This document shows positions 6,096 to 64,000 of a DNA stretch of 64,000 nucleotides, piece after piece. Under the pieces are notes generated by a model, which saw only the letters and a program-made list of their open reading frames with translations, made no database searches and was not told the origin of the DNA. This stretch comes from Pseudomonadota bacterium (GTDB taxonomy: Bacteria; Pseudomonadota; Gammaproteobacteria; Burkholderiales; Thiobacillaceae), in the NCBI GenBank assembly GCA_021802555.1, contig JAJZRU010000008.1, positions 1-64,000 of the forward strand, read 5' to 3'. Position 1 is the first letter of the stretch; every line of letters begins with the position of its first letter. The translations under genes were made by a program, and so were the position numbers.

Positions 6096-6803
6096 CGTAC
6101 GCTCGCGAAACAGAGCTTCGAGCAGGAAATGAACGAAAGCCAGACCGGTGAGCACGGGGGCGAAAAAATTCAATCCCGGCACATATTGCAAAAGCGCCAA
6201 CACCCCACCCAGCAGCCACAGCTCCGCACGGTGCGTGCGGAACACGGTGCGCATCTCCGCACGGTCGGCATGCTCGGCCAGGGCGTCGTAGCGGAACAGG
6301 CGCTGGTTTAGATAGCCGGCTGCGAGCAGCGGAGCCAAAGCGCCGAGCGGGCCGAACAGCCAAAGGGGCAGGGTGGCGATCCACAGGCCCAGATAGCCCA
6401 GCGTACCCAGCAGCGCATTGCCCAGGCTGCCCGTAAAAGTGCCGCCGTGGCGCGCTTCCAGGCCGGGATAATGCACCCGGGCCACCTGCCGCACCATGAT
6501 GGGAACGGCGAACAGCGCCGTGATCATGAGGGCCGTGAACATCACTGCGGGCACCAGCAGAATGAGGTGCAGCAGCACCGACAGCCCTATGCCGAGGACG
6601 TGCAGGTCGACCCCTTCGAACCCTTGCCGCACCCCCAGGGCGGCGAGCCCCCAGGTGAAGAAGCGGTTCAGATCGTCCCAGAATACCGCGGCCAGCAGGC
6701 CCCAAAGGAGCAGCGCGGCCAGCATGGGCCAGATCAGCAGCCACAGCATGCGCGCGCTGAACAGGCTGCGCAGCGCGCGCAACAGCGCGTCTAAGATGTT
6801 CAT
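6072..6803 (-). CDS. EI24 domain membrane protein
   Basis: A 243-aa integral membrane protein. From MNILDALLRALRS onward it has several hydrophobic segments (about residues 20-40, 70-100, 130-160 and 195-220) and the overall look of the EI24/CysZ-like family. Bacterial members are poorly characterised; CysZ itself is a sulfate channel, but this protein is not close enough by eye to be called cysZ. The start codon overlaps the mog stop in ATGA, indicating translational coupling. Longer in-frame starts upstream would run through mog and were rejected. Confidence 0.8.
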   Translation of the reverse strand: MNILDALLRALRSLFSARMLWLLIWPMLAALLLWGLLAAVFWDDLNRFFTWGLAALGVRQGFEGVDLHVLGIGLSVLLHLILLVPAVMFTALMITALFAVPIMVRQVARVHYPGLEARHGGTFTGSLGNALLGTLGYLGLWIATLPLWLFGPLGALAPLLAAGYLNQRLFRYDALAEHADRAEMRTVFRTHRAELWLLGGVLALLQYVPGLNFFAPVLTGLAFVHFLLEALFRERTSGGGLRA

Positions 6804-7363
6804 GCCGGACGGCGCTGGGCCGATTTCGGCCGGAAGGCCGCGATGCTGCTTTCGGGACGGGTTTCCAGGTAGGGGCCGCCGATGAGGTCGATGCAGTAGG
6901 GCACTGCGGCGAACACGCCGTCCAGCGTCTCGGCGATGGCCTTGGGCTGGCCCGGCAGGTTGAGGATGAGGCTGGCGCCGCGTACCACGCCCACTTGGCG
7001 GGACAGGATGGCGGTAGGGACGTACTTCAGGCTCACCGCCCGCATGGCTTCGCCGAAGCCCGGCAGTTCGCGCTCGGCCACGGCCAGCGTCGCTTCCGGG
7101 GTAACGTCGCGCGGGGCCGGGCCGGTGCCGCCGGTGGTCAATATCAGGCAGCAGTGTTTGCCATCGGCGAGTTCGCGCAGCGTGGCCTCGATGACAGGAC
7201 GCTCGTCGGGGATCAGGCGGGTTTCGAAGGTGCAGGGATTCAGCACCGTGCGTTCGATCCATGCCCTGAGGGCAGGCAGGCCCTGGTCTTGATATACGCC
7301 CTGGCTGGCGCGGTCGCTGATGGAGACGAGGCCGATGACGGCCGGATCCTGCCTTTCGCTCAT
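6800..7363 (-). CDS. mog: Molybdopterin adenylyltransferase (MogA/MoaB family)
   Basis: A 187-aa protein with the MoCF-biosynthesis fold. It carries the TTGGTGPAPRDVTPEAT signature around residues 75-92 and an LNLPGQPKAI motif near residue 135, both typical of Mog. The enzyme adenylylates molybdopterin before molybdenum insertion. The N-terminus (VIGLVSISDRASQGVYQDQG) matches the family start. It is coupled to the downstream EI24 gene by an ATGA overlap and follows fur after a short gap. Mog and MoaB are hard to separate without phylogeny. Confidence 0.88.
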   Translation of the reverse strand: MSERQDPAVIGLVSISDRASQGVYQDQGLPALRAWIERTVLNPCTFETRLIPDERPVIEATLRELADGKHCCLILTTGGTGPAPRDVTPEATLAVAERELPGFGEAMRAVSLKYVPTAILSRQVGVVRGASLILNLPGQPKAIAETLDGVFAAVPYCIDLIGGPYLETRPESSIAAFRPKSAQRRPA

Positions 7364-59161: not shown

Positions 59162-59798
59162 CTCGTTCCCAGTCCGGTGAACGCCGGAACCCGCCCGATT
59201 CGGCCGGAAGAGAGTTAGTCATCCGTCAGCCCGCTCCCAGCCTGCGCAGAAACGTGGGGAGGGTTGCGGCCGTTCGGTGCGGAACTCGAAAAGAGCCTTG
59301 GCATTAGAAAAAATAATAAATAATCAACTTACTAAAACGTTTTATTTCAGTTTATTGTTAACTCTGTCCGCGCCTATTGCTAGCGCCAAGTCCGATCGCC
59401 GTCATAAGCGGTTTCCGCATTGATGGCTGAGGAAAGCAGGTGCATTGCGGAAAAAGCTACCGTCCTAGACCAAGTATCTCATGGGCAAGCTTCCGGAAGC
59501 GGGAATGGCGGTGGGCAGTACCATGCCGGATTATATTGCTTCGTATAATTTATATTATGTTAAATAATGGAAAGTGGGTATGGCGCCACACCATGGATAC
59601 TACTAAGGTGGTGCTAATTTGATTTCTGTACCTTTCCGTCGTTACCGCCGCAACCTGCGGGGGTTGGCGATGGGAATGGGTCCCCTTTGCTGTCACACGG
59701 CAGAACACCAACGCAATGATGACCACTTTTTTACGCGCGGCGCCGTACGGTTGCCAAAATCGTCTGAAATATCGGTAGTCGGGCGTGCCAATCCCGCC
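59162..59798. other. Long AT-rich, structured intergenic region
   Basis: A 637-base gap between divergent operons. The section 59300-59620 is AT-rich with several -10-like words (TATAAT at 59544-59549). It also holds inverted repeats: TTTCCGCA (59412-59419) with TGCGGAAA (59446-59453), and the 12-bp palindrome GCTTCCGGAAGC (59489-59500). The last 180 bases are open in frame with the kinase, but resemble no kinase N-terminus. A small RNA cannot be excluded. Confidence 0.5.
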
Positions 59799-61292
59799 AT
59801 GCCCGCTCTTTACCCGAGATCATTTTCAGGTTTGTCACTGTTGGGCTTTGCCCTGGTTACGCTGCCGTTGCTGGCCGGACTGGTAAATATGGCTTTTGTC
59901 ATCAAACGCCTCGCCCGCGAAGAACGGCAAGGCATTTCCATGACGATGCAAGTCACCCGTGCCACGCGGCAGCTGGCTCATGACATCGCCACTTTGCAGC
60001 GTGCCGCCGGCCAATATTTCGTGCTGCGCGATCCTGCGCTGAGAAGCGGCATGGAGGCGGCAAATAGGGCCACGATACGGGAACTGCATACGCTGCAAAA
60101 ACTGCCTTTTCACGACGGGTCGCAGCAGCGCCTGGTGGGTGTCATATCCAGGGAGGAAGGGGCGCTTTATCGCCGCCTTAGCGCCCGGCACAGCGGCGGC
60201 ATGAAGGAATTTAACAAGCTGCTGCCGGATTTCAACTGGTTGATCCGGCAAGCAGGCACGCTGACAGACAGCAGCAACGCCCTGGTCGACGCCCAGGACA
60301 TGGCCATCACTCGCCAGGCAAACCTCGTTTGGGCCTCTCTGCTTTGGCAGGCCGCCGCCGTGGTGCTGCTGTCGCTGTGCCTGGCGGCGCTGTTTTCCTG
60401 GCTGCTCAACCGCCCGGTACGGCAAATCGATCATGCCATCCGCTGCCTGGGCGAGGGTGACCTGGATGCCCAACCTTCCGTACGAGGGCCCGTTGACCTT
60501 GTTTTCCTGGGGCAACAAATCGACTGGCTGCGTCAGCGCCTGCGCGAAATCGACGAACAGAAGCTGCGCTTTCTTCGCCATGTCTCGCACGAATTGAAAA
60601 CGCCGCTGGCCTCGCTGCGCGAGGGAGTGGAATTGCTGGCCGACGGCGTGGGCGGAAAACTTTCGGCAAAGCAGCGCGAGATTACCCACATCATGCAGAG
60701 CAATGCCCGGGATTTGCAGCAACGCATCGAAAATCTTCTCAACTACAGCCGCGCCCAGCGCCATCTCGATCCCTTGGTTTCAAGCGGGGTGGAGATATCC
60801 TCGCTCATCGGGAAGGTCATACAACGCAACGAACTCGGGTTGCGCGCGAAGAGGCTGCACGTCGAATACAGCGGTCGGGAATGTACGCTGACGGCCGACC
60901 AAGGCAAACTCGATACCCTATTCGAGAACCTGCTGATCAACGCCGTTCGTTTCAGCCCCCCAGGCGCCGCCATCCGCTTGGATATGCACGCCGACAAGCA
61001 GGCAGTGGAGATTAGGATATGCGATCAGGGGCCCGGCGTGGCAGACGTCGATCGTCCCCACCTGTTCAAGCCTTTTTTTCAGGGCATGCGCCAGCCCGCC
61101 GCGGCGAGCACCGGGAACGGGCTTGGTCTGGCCATTGCGCAGGAATACGCCAAATTGCACGGTGGGGAGATTCGCTTGTGCGGCACATCCGAAAGTGTTG
61201 GCGCATGCTTTTGCGTGCGCCTGCCGCTCGATGCGGATCTACCGGTGCGCCAGAATTCCCGGCTGCATCTGCCATCTTCGCATAGCCCCTAG
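59799..61292 (+). CDS. GlrK/QseE-like sensor histidine kinase
   Basis: A 497-aa kinase. Membrane segments at about 10-32 and 180-202 enclose a mainly helical periplasmic domain (RAAGQYFVLRDPAL resembles E. coli GlrK). HAMP follows, then the H-box HVSHELKTPLASLREG (phospho-His264), N-box LLINAVRFSPP and G-boxes DQGPGV and GNGLGLAIAQ. The ATG at 59799 was chosen because MPALYPRSFSGLSLLG aligns with the GlrK N-terminus; the frame stays open to a TTG at 59619. First gene of a three-gene signalling operon. Confidence 0.87.
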   Translation: MPALYPRSFSGLSLLGFALVTLPLLAGLVNMAFVIKRLAREERQGISMTMQVTRATRQLAHDIATLQRAAGQYFVLRDPALRSGMEAANRATIRELHTLQKLPFHDGSQQRLVGVISREEGALYRRLSARHSGGMKEFNKLLPDFNWLIRQAGTLTDSSNALVDAQDMAITRQANLVWASLLWQAAAVVLLSLCLAALFSWLLNRPVRQIDHAIRCLGEGDLDAQPSVRGPVDLVFLGQQIDWLRQRLREIDEQKLRFLRHVSHELKTPLASLREGVELLADGVGGKLSAKQREITHIMQSNARDLQQRIENLLNYSRAQRHLDPLVSSGVEISSLIGKVIQRNELGLRAKRLHVEYSGRECTLTADQGKLDTLFENLLINAVRFSPPGAAIRLDMHADKQAVEIRICDQGPGVADVDRPHLFKPFFQGMRQPAAASTGNGLGLAIAQEYAKLHGGEIRLCGTSESVGACFCVRLPLDADLPVRQNSRLHLPSSHSP

Positions 61293-61294
61293 CC

Positions 61295-61894
61295 ATGCCT
61301 CTCCGATTTTTATTTTTTGCTCGAGGCAGGGTAGCCACGGTCATGTTGGCGCTGCTGTCCGGCTGCGCGCAGACTCCGCTACGCACGGCGATCATGCCGC
61401 CGGCGCCGCATGCGCCCGCCCCCGCCCCGACGGTGACGTGCCCGCAGGCCGCACCGCCGCCCGTGCACAAGCCGGCGCCATTGAGCATGGAATGGATTGG
61501 CCACACCCTCCGTCGCATTGCGCGGGAGCCCGACGCGGCCGCCGCCGCCGAACAACAGCGTCTACAGGCCTCCGGCACGCAACTCGCGCCGCCAGACAAA
61601 CTCGAACTCGCGTATTTGCTTATGGCGCGGGCAACGCCCGCCCGAGCGCAAACCGCCGAGGCGCAGAATCTGTTGGCCGGACTGGAGCGCCAGACCAGCG
61701 ATCCGGCTTCGCGCCAATTCATCCAGCTTATGCAACGCCTATGCCGGCAGAGCCTGGAGCTATTCCGTCTGCGCGCCAACTTGACCAGCAGCGTCGGCCA
61801 GATAGCCGTTTTGCAGAAACAGATCGAGCAGATAAAAAACCTGGAGGTGGAATTGCAGAATCCGGTGCCAGATGCCGGTGGGCGGAGCAAATGA
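61295..61894 (+). CDS. QseG-like lipoprotein
   Basis: A 199-aa lipoprotein: signal segment with lipobox LLSGC (Cys at about residue 24), a Pro-rich linker, then a helical domain ending in a coiled coil (VGQIAVLQKQIEQIKNLEVELQN). Position between kinase and regulator, two bases after the kinase stop, matches the glrK-qseG-glrR order of enterobacteria, where QseG is an outer membrane partner of the kinase. Sequence similarity is weak by eye; the call rests mostly on context and the lipoprotein plus coiled-coil layout. Confidence 0.7.
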   Translation: MPLRFLFFARGRVATVMLALLSGCAQTPLRTAIMPPAPHAPAPAPTVTCPQAAPPPVHKPAPLSMEWIGHTLRRIAREPDAAAAAEQQRLQASGTQLAPPDKLELAYLLMARATPARAQTAEAQNLLAGLERQTSDPASRQFIQLMQRLCRQSLELFRLRANLTSSVGQIAVLQKQIEQIKNLEVELQNPVPDAGGRSK

Positions 61895-61967
61895 GGGTAC
61901 GCCGCAAAGGCCCGTGGCCGCACGCAAGGCCGCGCGCACTCGCCGCGCAAAACACGGACATGCGCCT

Positions 61968-63329
61968 ATGAGCATGCAGGCGCCGAACGTGCTGGTGGTG
62001 GACGACGACGAGGCTCTTCTGCGTTTGCTTTCGATACGTCTGCAATCGGCGGGCTACAAGCCTGCCGGCGTCGCCAGCGGCGCCGAGGCTTTGGCCCGGT
62101 TGGCCGTGGCACGGCCCCAGGCCGTCATCACCGACCTGCGCATGCAGGGCATGGATGGCATGGACCTCTTCAAGCGCATCCACGAGGTTGACCCATCGCT
62201 GCCGGTCATCATCTTGACCGCTCACGGCTCCATTCCGGACGCAGTGACTGCTACCCAAAGCGGCGTTTTCGGCTATCTCACCAAACCTTTCGAAGCGAAG
62301 GAATTGCTCGCCTTGCTCGAACGCGCCATAAATGCCCGTGGCGCTTCGACGGGAAAACTCGCGTGCGCGCGGTTTCCGGAGATCGTCACCGCCAGCCCCT
62401 TGATGACCGCCCTGCTCGATGAGGTCGCGCTGGTGGGGGCCAGCGAGGCAAATGTATTGATCCAGGGCGAATCCGGGACGGGCAAGGAGGTGCTGGCGCG
62501 CGCGGTGCATCAAGCCAGCGCGCGCAAGCATGGGCCATTCGTGGCGATCAACTGCGCGGCCATTCCGGAAGCCCTCCTCGAATCGGAGCTTTTCGGCCAC
62601 ACCAAGGGTGCATTCACCGGCGCAACGGCAAGCCACAAGGGCCTGTTCCAAACCACGCAGGGCGGCACCGTCTTCCTTGACGAAATCGGCGACATGCCGC
62701 TATCCCTGCAAGCCAAGCTGTTGAGGGTGCTCCAGGAGCGCGAGATCAGACCCGTCGGCGCCAGCCACTCTCTGCCGATAGACGTCCGCATCGTCTCCGC
62801 CACCCACCGCGACTTGGAAACCGCCATTGCGGAGTCGCAATTCCGCGAGGATTTATATTACCGGCTCAACGTGGTGGGTTTGCACATCCCCTCCCTGCGG
62901 GAGCGGCGCGAGGACATTGTTCCGCTGGCCCATCATTTCTTCGGCAAACTCGGCGCACGGCATGGTGGCGGACGTATCGCCGGCTTTACCCCTGATGCGC
63001 TGGACATCCTCGTGCGCGCCGACTGGCCCGGAAATGTGCGCCAGCTCATGAACGTCATTGAGCAGTGTTGCGCTCTGTGCGTCACCACCCGCATCCCGGC
63101 CGCATTGGTGAAGCGTGCCTTGCGCAATGCGCCTTTGGAAATTTTCAGCTATGCGGAAGCGAAAGAGCGTTTCGAGCGGGAATATCTGGTGAACCTGATG
63201 AAATTGACGGGCGGCCAAGTCAGCGAGGCCGCACGCTTGGCGCAACGCAACCGCACCGAATTCTATCGTCTGCTGCAAAAGCATGCACTTTCACCGGCTT
63301 TATTCAAACCTTCTGATGATTTTGAATAA
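61968..63329 (+). CDS. GlrR/QseF-like sigma-54-dependent response regulator
   Basis: A 453-aa NtrC-class activator. The receiver has DDDE at the start, phospho-acceptor Asp56 and Lys106. The AAA+ domain carries Walker A GESGTGKE (167-174) and the sigma-54 contact loop GAFTGA (214-219). A Fis-type HTH ends the protein (about 420-445, GGQVSEAARLAQRNRTEFYRLL). The ATG at 61968 fits GlrR starts; longer frames were rejected. Predicted sites for it begin immediately after its own stop codon. Confidence 0.93.
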   Translation: MSMQAPNVLVVDDDEALLRLLSIRLQSAGYKPAGVASGAEALARLAVARPQAVITDLRMQGMDGMDLFKRIHEVDPSLPVIILTAHGSIPDAVTATQSGVFGYLTKPFEAKELLALLERAINARGASTGKLACARFPEIVTASPLMTALLDEVALVGASEANVLIQGESGTGKEVLARAVHQASARKHGPFVAINCAAIPEALLESELFGHTKGAFTGATASHKGLFQTTQGGTVFLDEIGDMPLSLQAKLLRVLQEREIRPVGASHSLPIDVRIVSATHRDLETAIAESQFREDLYYRLNVVGLHIPSLRERREDIVPLAHHFFGKLGARHGGGRIAGFTPDALDILVRADWPGNVRQLMNVIEQCCALCVTTRIPAALVKRALRNAPLEIFSYAEAKERFEREYLVNLMKLTGGQVSEAARLAQRNRTEFYRLLQKHALSPALFKPSDDFE

Positions 63330-63347
63330 TGTCGCTATCAGGCGACA
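63330..63347 (+). promoter_or_regulatory. Upstream activator site 1, TGTC-N10-GACA
   Basis: TGTC at 63330-63333 and GACA at 63344-63347 are separated by exactly ten bases; the two inner bases on each side (GC/GC) extend the symmetry. This is the published binding pattern of enterobacterial GlrR. It abuts the glrR-like stop codon and lies about 175 bases upstream of the sigma-54 promoter. Confidence 0.82.
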
Positions 63348-63392
63348 ATAATTTTCTTTAAAAACAATTCAATTTTTTCATATTTCTAAATT

Positions 63393-63410
63393 TGTCGGGA
63401 TAAAAAGACA
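63393..63410 (+). promoter_or_regulatory. Upstream activator site 2, TGTC-N10-GACA
   Basis: TGTC at 63393-63396 and GACA at 63407-63410, again with exactly ten bases between. It lies 63 bases from site 1 (six helical turns) and about 110 bases before the sigma-54 promoter, a normal enhancer distance for an NtrC-type activator. Confidence 0.82.
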
Positions 63411-63504
63411 ATATCCATAGGATATATCTGATATTTCATTCAAATATTCAGTATCCTTATACAAAAAATATTTCAATACATTGATTTTACGTATTTAAAT
63501 TTAC

Positions 63505-63521
63505 TTGGCACATAGGCTGCT
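63505..63521 (+). promoter_or_regulatory. Sigma-54 promoter
   Basis: TTGGCAC then TGCT, with ten bases between the invariant GG (63507-63508) and GC (63519-63520). This fits the -24/-12 consensus. The transcript should begin near 63532. Two GlrR-type sites upstream and the NtrC-class gene next door support it. Confidence 0.9.
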
Positions 63522-63531
63522 TAATGAATCG

Positions 63532-63552
63532 TGTGCCGAAAAACTCGGCACA
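63532..63552 (+). promoter_or_regulatory. 5'-end stem-loop of the sigma-54 transcript
   Basis: TGTGCCGA (63532-63539) pairs perfectly with TCGGCACA (63545-63552) around a five-base loop. It begins at the expected transcription start, so the mRNA would open with an 8-bp hairpin. Such 5' stems protect transcripts from decay; no T-tract follows. Confidence 0.7.
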
Positions 63553-63584
63553 TTTTCCAATTTGTCATCATTCAAGGAGTTTTG

Positions 63585-63848
63585 ATGAAAAACAAATGCA
63601 TCCTGAACAAGCAAGCCGCTTCCGCGATCGCAATCAGCGCCGCACTGTTGCTTCCGACTATGTTTGCCTCCGGCCAGGCTGCCGCGGCAGGGCTTCCTTC
63701 ACAAGCCGCGCCCGTGCAAGGCAAGATGGCCGGCCCTCAGAACGCCGCAGGTTACGGCGCGCAACAAGCGGGGGCCAAAAGCGGCGCTTTGACTCCCGTA
63801 AGCGCCGCCGGGAAAATGGGCGGCAAGAAGAAAAAACATAACCAATAA
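63585..63848 (+). CDS. Small exported Gly/Ala-rich protein with Lys-rich end
   Basis: An 87-aa protein. A signal peptide (basic start MKNKCILNKQ, hydrophobic AIAISAALLLPTMF, Ala-rich cleavage region near residue 33) leaves about 50 residues rich in Gly, Ala, Gln and Lys, ending KMGGKKKKHNQ. No cysteine remains in the predicted mature part and no family was recognised. AAGGAG at 63574-63579 supports the start. It is the only gene behind the sigma-54 promoter and GlrR-type sites, so it is probably a target of the adjacent kinase/regulator pair. Confidence 0.82.
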   Translation: MKNKCILNKQAASAIAISAALLLPTMFASGQAAAAGLPSQAAPVQGKMAGPQNAAGYGAQQAGAKSGALTPVSAAGKMGGKKKKHNQ

Positions 63849-63899
63849 CCTCCTGGCTTCAAGCAGCCTTCATTAGCGGCCGTTTTTTCACGGTGCGCC

Positions 63900-63921
63900 G
63901 GGCCAAGCGTTTGCTTGGCCC
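63900..63921. terminator. Hairpin between convergent genes
   Basis: A perfect 9-bp stem (GGGCCAAGC / GCTTGGCCC) with a four-base loop lies 51 bases after the small exported protein gene and 23 bases after the presumed stop of the opposite-strand gene. The following bases are only moderately T-rich on either strand, so termination is likely but not certain. Confidence 0.6.
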
Positions 63922-63944
63922 GAACCTATTTGTTCATGTAGCGT

Positions 63945-64000
63945 CTACTGCGCCCCTCGCAGTTCCTGCCCAAATTGGGCGAATTTCTTTTTGTCCAGAT
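63945..64000 (-). CDS. C-terminal end of an unidentified gene (partial)
   Basis: On the minus strand the window edge carries 17 codons (LDKKKFAQFGQELRGAQ) ending in TAG at 63945-63947. The composition looks coding and a hairpin follows the stop. Too little is present to name a family. Confidence 0.4.
   Translation of the reverse strand, partial: LDKKKFAQFGQELRGAQ

Follow-up and report, generated by a model that had tools for sequence, protein, structure and literature searches.

The closest described system is QseE/QseG/QseF (GlrK/GlrR) of Escherichia coli, for which enterobacterial work gives glmY and rpoE as direct targets (PMC6075780, PMC8745638). In the periplasm the kinase is bound by the lipoprotein QseG, which sets how active it is; QseF, with the assistance of IHF, acts at sigma-54 promoters to switch on glmY and rpoE, which both regulate envelope homeostasis (PMC6075780). 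The printed QseF consensus is TGTC-N10-GACA (PMC8745638), and glmY, a target of GlrR/QseF and sigma-54 in enterobacteria, is a small RNA (PMC6075780).

The window analysed here (the whole stretch of DNA, 64,000 nucleotides) carries a small gene placed 3' of a glrK–qseG-like–glrR operon, with the same gene order as qseE-qseG-qseF. The features of this region are:

59619–61292, plus strand: sensor histidine kinase in the GlrK/QseE position (HAMP, HisKA, HATPase_c); start codon uncertain
61295–61894, plus strand: lipoprotein in the QseG position, named by position and lipobox (LLSGC) only
61872–63329, plus strand: glrR, sigma-54-type response regulator (Response_reg, Sigma54_activat); start probably near 61968
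63330–63347, no strand: GlrR/QseF site 1, exact TGTC-N10-GACA, also an inverted repeat resembling a terminator, 3' of glrR
63393–63410, no strand: GlrR/QseF site 2, exact TGTC-N10-GACA
63474–63486, minus strand: IHF consensus, zero mismatches
63506–63520, plus strand: sigma-54 -24/-12 element TGGCACATAGGCTGC, 10 of 12 positions
63531–63553, plus strand: hairpin at the 5' end of the predicted transcript, with a core of 8 perfect base pairs at 63532–63552
63574–63579, plus strand: Shine-Dalgarno AAGGAG, 5 nt 5' of the ATG
63585–63848, plus strand: gene for a small basic protein, predicted to be exported (open reading frame, codon usage)
63585–63689, plus strand: predicted Sec signal peptide (heuristic; cleavage after about residue 35)
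63900–63921, no strand: 9-bp inverted repeat GGGCCAAGC-GTTT-GCTTGGCCC between convergent genes; possible transcript end

The best NCBIfam model for the regulator was GlrR (NF011695, 568.6 bits; the runner-up, ntrC, gave 428.7), and it is called GlrR-like on the strength of this ranking among all models and of the operon layout. Its score is below the curated equivalog cut-off of 763 for NF011695, which counts against the reading that we prefer below. The Pfam and NCBIfam scans returned no match for the lipoprotein in the QseG position.

A reading made from the sequence only had described the promoter of the small gene as elaborate, and the gap behind glrR (63330–63584, 255 bp, 29% G+C against 64% in the window) bears this out: two exact TGTC-N10-GACA sites spaced by 63 nt are followed by a perfect IHF match and then by a -24/-12 element of the sigma-54 type. 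As in the GlrR/QseF regulon, the TGTC-N10-GACA sites lie upstream of a sigma-54 promoter and the IHF site lies between the enhancers and that promoter. From the position of the sigma-54 element, transcription is predicted to start near 63531. The leader (63531–63590) folds at −19.1 kcal/mol (z = −3.29), a value equalled by 2 of 200 shuffles, and 5' hairpins can guard mRNAs against decay; the whole predicted transcript folded no better than shuffles (z = −0.94). The inverted repeat at 63900–63921 was passed over by the terminator scan, which requires a T run. The convergent gene beyond it, on the minus strand and running past the window end (63945–64469; L173 5946–6470), encodes another protein with an N-terminus resembling a signal peptide; Pfam had no match for it.

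The pattern TGTC-N10-GACA occurs 36 times in the genome, against 17 times for the reversed pattern. All 36 sites were inspected, and a sigma-54 element of at least 10/12 within 320 nt was found only at the two sites described here; two further sites have a nearby -24/-12 element scoring 9. On its own, the sigma-54 pattern shows no genome-wide enrichment (51 matches against 67 for the reversed control), which counts against the preferred reading; it is the combination of elements, rather than the sigma-54 pattern by itself, that is unusual. Judged by these patterns, the small gene is apparently the only strong predicted GlrR target in the genome. Its regulation by GlrR and sigma-54 is well supported by sequence, from which we infer that GlrR acts at this gene.

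The frame itself (ATG at 63585, stop at 63846–63848, a product of 87 aa ending in KMGGKKKKHNQ) was recovered exactly as the sequence-only reading had given it, and is very probably a real gene. That reading had also called its ribosome binding site, signal peptide and promoter unusual for a random short frame. An open frame this long has a chance of P ~0.07 at the local composition, so that length on its own is weak evidence. The in-frame codon score was 0.27 bits/codon, where pieces of the long open reading frames of the window gave 0.33 ± 0.23 in the true frame and −0.31 ± 0.38 in wrong frames; 0 of 2000 mononucleotide shuffles attained 0.27. Among the wrong-frame pieces 88% scored lower and 12% equal or higher, the latter counting against the preferred reading. 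Codon usage is thus close to that of the long reading frames and far from that of shuffles, and is less decisive against wrong frames.

Signal peptides were assessed with a home-made heuristic (positive n-region, hydrophobic core, AxA site), which agreed with the signal peptide proposed earlier: three Lys, counted as K/R, precede a hydrophobic core with a hydropathy of 2.36 at residue 13, and AxA sites lie at residues 33–36. We infer from this heuristic that the 87-aa precursor is exported. The presumed mature part, residues 36–87, is 52 aa long, where about 50 had been claimed, and contains 7 Lys and zero Asp/Glu, giving a net charge of +7 and a pI of 10.5; it indeed lacks cysteine, the sole Cys being residue 5, in the signal region. 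An AlphaFold model from the single sequence, without an alignment, had a mean pLDDT of 55.7 and one helix, at residues 6–22 within the signal peptide. The mature part is probably disordered, the low pLDDT being as expected of disorder rather than proof of it; the model is otherwise uninformative, a point against the preferred reading.

The protein had been labelled unrecognised, and the searches left that label in place. Pfam and NCBIfam gave no match at E ≤ 1, nor any to Asr-like proteins, in libraries that may not hold an Asr model. No convincing homologue was found in 101 relatives, 117 family genomes and 399 order genomes (overlapping sets), which counts against the preferred reading, and no match in the plasmids or the viral contigs searched. 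There were 21 distinct non-self matches, with E from 4.3e-5 to 0.01, identities of 25–51% and stop codons inside 10 of the 21. All were treated as composition matches rather than homologues; the surrounding frames were inspected for 19 of them (L183 and L189 being left out). Two of them, L185 and L188 (E 0.004 and 0.008), come from different species of the same genus and encode a small basic exported protein of 92 aa whose sequence differs; exact GlrR sites were absent from the ∼3.2 kb viewed there. At the DNA level, the gene with its flanks gave a best non-self E of 0.067 against two congeners. Neither has a GlrR match at E ≤ 1e-150, so they may be missing the entire locus and the absence of the small gene there says little. 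Rfam gave five matches in 60000–64000 at E ≤ 5, the best with 21.2 bits against a gathering threshold of 117, and GlmY/GlmZ were not among them; with unremarkable folding of the whole transcript in addition, a small RNA identity was not adopted.

The same slot was compared at 60 loci, this one included, over at most 1.5 kb beyond glrR. Thirty loci (L008–L036 and L060) were taken out of 80 for their higher identity, and the other 30, including this one, were those of 54 places that had loci attached; L010, L016 and L026 are among the loci with less than 1.5 kb downstream. The arrangement was scored where GlrR sites (one exact, or two with at most one mismatch) lay 60–200 nt before a sigma-54 element. 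It was present in 32 of the 60 loci (31 of 59 excluding this one), which gave 35 promoters, and in 0 of 29 controls, these being the glrR-coding stretches of L088–L117 with L116 too short for use; shuffles of the 60 loci over 20 rounds gave a mean of 0.0 loci. By the same test, 28 of the 60 glrR loci are without the arrangement, which counts against the preferred reading. Two-site promoters (30, this one included) had a spacing of 62–68 nt in 29 cases. The distance from the -12 element to the ATG is 64 nt here and 53–69 nt in 24 of 34 others, with starts chosen automatically; the choice for L015 is clearly wrong, and those for L012, L014, L023, L098 (first promoter), L109 and L110 are doubtful. 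The ribosome binding site, which had been called strong, has a Shine-Dalgarno score equal to the best among the slot genes compared. Near +1, a mismatch-free stem of 6 bp or more was found at 4 of the 35 promoters (that of the window, L090, L091 and L093; the stem of L022 lies further in), so the 5' hairpin is no general feature.

Among 28 other first genes scanned, 21 matched EF-hand and 14 matched BON models, and single slot genes matched DUF1328, MdoG and glycine zipper; the 87-aa protein matched none of the EF-hand or BON families of Pfam. In alignment A1, which omits six of the 35 frames (three of DUF1328 type, the two MdoG-type loci L109 and L015, and L023), the 28 slot proteins apart from this one comprise 24 that are net negative, 2 neutral and 2 positive (one at +7). 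As the slot proteins of relatives are mostly acidic, the basic protein here may have a different job, which counts against the preferred reading. An EF-hand-like/BON protein is encoded on another contig of this genome (G000:C15:34886-35083, L210), with BON above and EF-hand below the cut-off. In the 3.2 kb around it the same test found 0 exact GlrR sites and 0 sigma-54 elements, along with five one-mismatch GlrR sites, which suggests that the EF-hand/BON protein of the slot has been replaced or relocated in this genome.

The closest relative by GlrR (69% identity) carries downstream a BON gene for which EF-hand also matched, below the threshold; a sigma-54-like element lies before this gene, and exact GlrR sites are absent in front of it. 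When this locus (L089, reverse-complemented) was viewed by eye, a sigma-54-like TGGAACGGTTCTTGCA was seen ∼25 nt past the glrR match, followed by a Shine-Dalgarno sequence and a short frame that has no evident signal peptide. L098, L100 and L102 have a second sigma-54-like element closer to glrR, in front of a frame for a small membrane protein of DUF1328 type (MFGWA...). The same glrR-proximal element and DUF1328-type frame also occur in L091–L094, L096 and L103–L107, and only in L098, L100 and L102 does a GlrR site that passes the test precede this element. Outside Betaproteobacteria, GlrR sites and a sigma-54 element lie behind the regulator in L012 (Desulfobulbaceae; 6643–6930) and L023 (Nitrospirota; from 6435); the downstream gene of L012 has a lipoprotein-like N-terminus.

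The reading that we prefer, with a probability of about 0.5, is that the gene encodes a lineage-specific cationic periplasmic protein, induced by GlrR and sigma-54 in envelope stress, that probably binds anionic envelope polymers. It is drawn from the two exact sites and the sigma-54 element, a set that is unique in the genome and recurs behind glrR in relatives; the start spacing, the Shine-Dalgarno sequence, the codon usage and the +7 mature part were also counted in its favour. In such a circuit, the GlrK/QseG-like pair would sense envelope stress and give rise to phosphorylated GlrR, which would act at the two TGTC-N10-GACA enhancers, while IHF would bend the AT-rich spacer and sigma-54 RNA polymerase would initiate near 63531. 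The short transcript, with its protective 5' hairpin, would yield the 87-aa precursor for Sec export, and the disordered +7 peptide of ∼52 residues would most likely bind LPS, peptidoglycan or other polyanions, by which the envelope might be stabilised or shielded; it is the charge and the compartment of the mature peptide that suggest such binding. The small protein would thereby take the place held by exported EF-hand/BON proteins in relatives, and is probably a lineage-specific cell-envelope stress protein. What the sequence-only reading had said of a small exported Lys-rich protein and its promoter is retained here, and envelope protection, one of the roles that it offered, agrees with the type of regulator.

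Two other explanations are real alternatives. The frame could have arisen, or been captured, behind a well-kept GlrR promoter and be functionless or very young, with little or no selected role. Its absence from the two congeners, the weak composition-type matches that were all the 116 other family genomes gave, and the EF-hand-like/BON protein retained elsewhere in the genome would fit such an origin, but the good Shine-Dalgarno sequence at the usual distance, the signal-like N-terminus and the gene-like codon usage argue against it, and we regard it as unlikely. By analogy with CpxP, the protein might instead act in feedback, being induced by GlrR and damping the system once bound to the QseG-like lipoprotein or to the kinase's periplasmic portion. 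Homology to known inhibitors is absent in Pfam and NCBIfam, the model lacks a predicted fold and the slot proteins of relatives are unrelated, which makes feedback a rather improbable role, even though the gene adjoins the operon of its own regulator in a predicted single-target circuit, its product is predicted to be exported, and in E. coli it is QseG that, bound to the kinase within the periplasm, sets kinase activity (PMC6075780).

A less likely possibility is that the transcript is itself the product, a counterpart of GlmY whose translation is incidental. That glmY, the enterobacterial target of GlrR/QseF and sigma-54, is a small RNA (PMC6075780) and that the 5' hairpin is strong would suit this; the best Rfam score (21.2 bits against 117) and the shuffle-like folding of the transcript (z −0.94) do not, the codon usage, Shine-Dalgarno sequence and start spacing point to a protein, and the slots of relatives mostly hold protein genes, so that an RNA product seems very unlikely. 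The gene could also be real and lie outside GlrR control, with site 1 as the glrR terminator and a promoter of another kind. Site 1, directly after the glrR stop, was flagged as terminator-like (which counts against the preferred reading), the sigma-54 pattern on its own does not exceed chance, and there are three sigma-70-like matches in a 1.3-kb stretch where 1.0 ± 1.1 were expected. Against these stand the two sites at conserved spacing and, in register with them, the elements for IHF and sigma-54, as also at 31 of the 59 other loci, and we consider control by another promoter most improbable.

The regulatory system is of a known kind, and the novelty would lie in the product and the recurring slot 3' of glrR. 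Among the matches listed from the literature, with subscription journals mostly outside, no title or abstract opening describes GlrR driving an EF-hand/BON protein or a small basic exported protein. Tentatively, and with more doubt than attaches to the preferred reading, the slot may be a conserved place from which GlrR and sigma-54 drive interchangeable exported envelope proteins in Betaproteobacteria and beyond; in this lineage a cationic disordered protein of recent origin would have taken over from the usual EF-hand/BON protein. This newcomer, the one strong GlrR target predicted here, could represent an envelope-stress effector or feedback peptide of a new class. The arrangement predicts that, outside enterobacteria, GlrR directly activates genes for small exported proteins at a fixed place beside its own operon. 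It yields a testable list of targets, and puts an orphan small protein into an envelope-stress circuit with apparently one strong target here.

Among known systems, Asr-type acid-shock proteins are small, exported, Ala- and Lys-rich and of low complexity. The small protein is likewise Ala/Lys-rich, of low complexity and, by prediction, exported; in contrast to Asr-type proteins it matches no family model, and its regulator differs. CpxP is a folded protein that turns the Cpx system down. It shares with the small protein the features of a small exported product that adjoins, and is apparently controlled by, its own two-component system, whereas the small protein is without homology or a confident fold. 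The Betaproteobacterial EF-hand/BON slot proteins have the same position and promoter arrangement and a similar start distance and signal peptide, but the protein here has no EF-hand or BON domain and is basic where theirs are mostly acidic. With QseE/QseG/QseF of E. coli the locus has in common the order kinase, lipoprotein, regulator, the TGTC-N10-GACA sites, and the IHF and sigma-54 elements; it differs in that the regulator here is under the NCBIfam cut-off, and in that the predicted target is a small protein gene 3' of glrR rather than glmY or rpoE.
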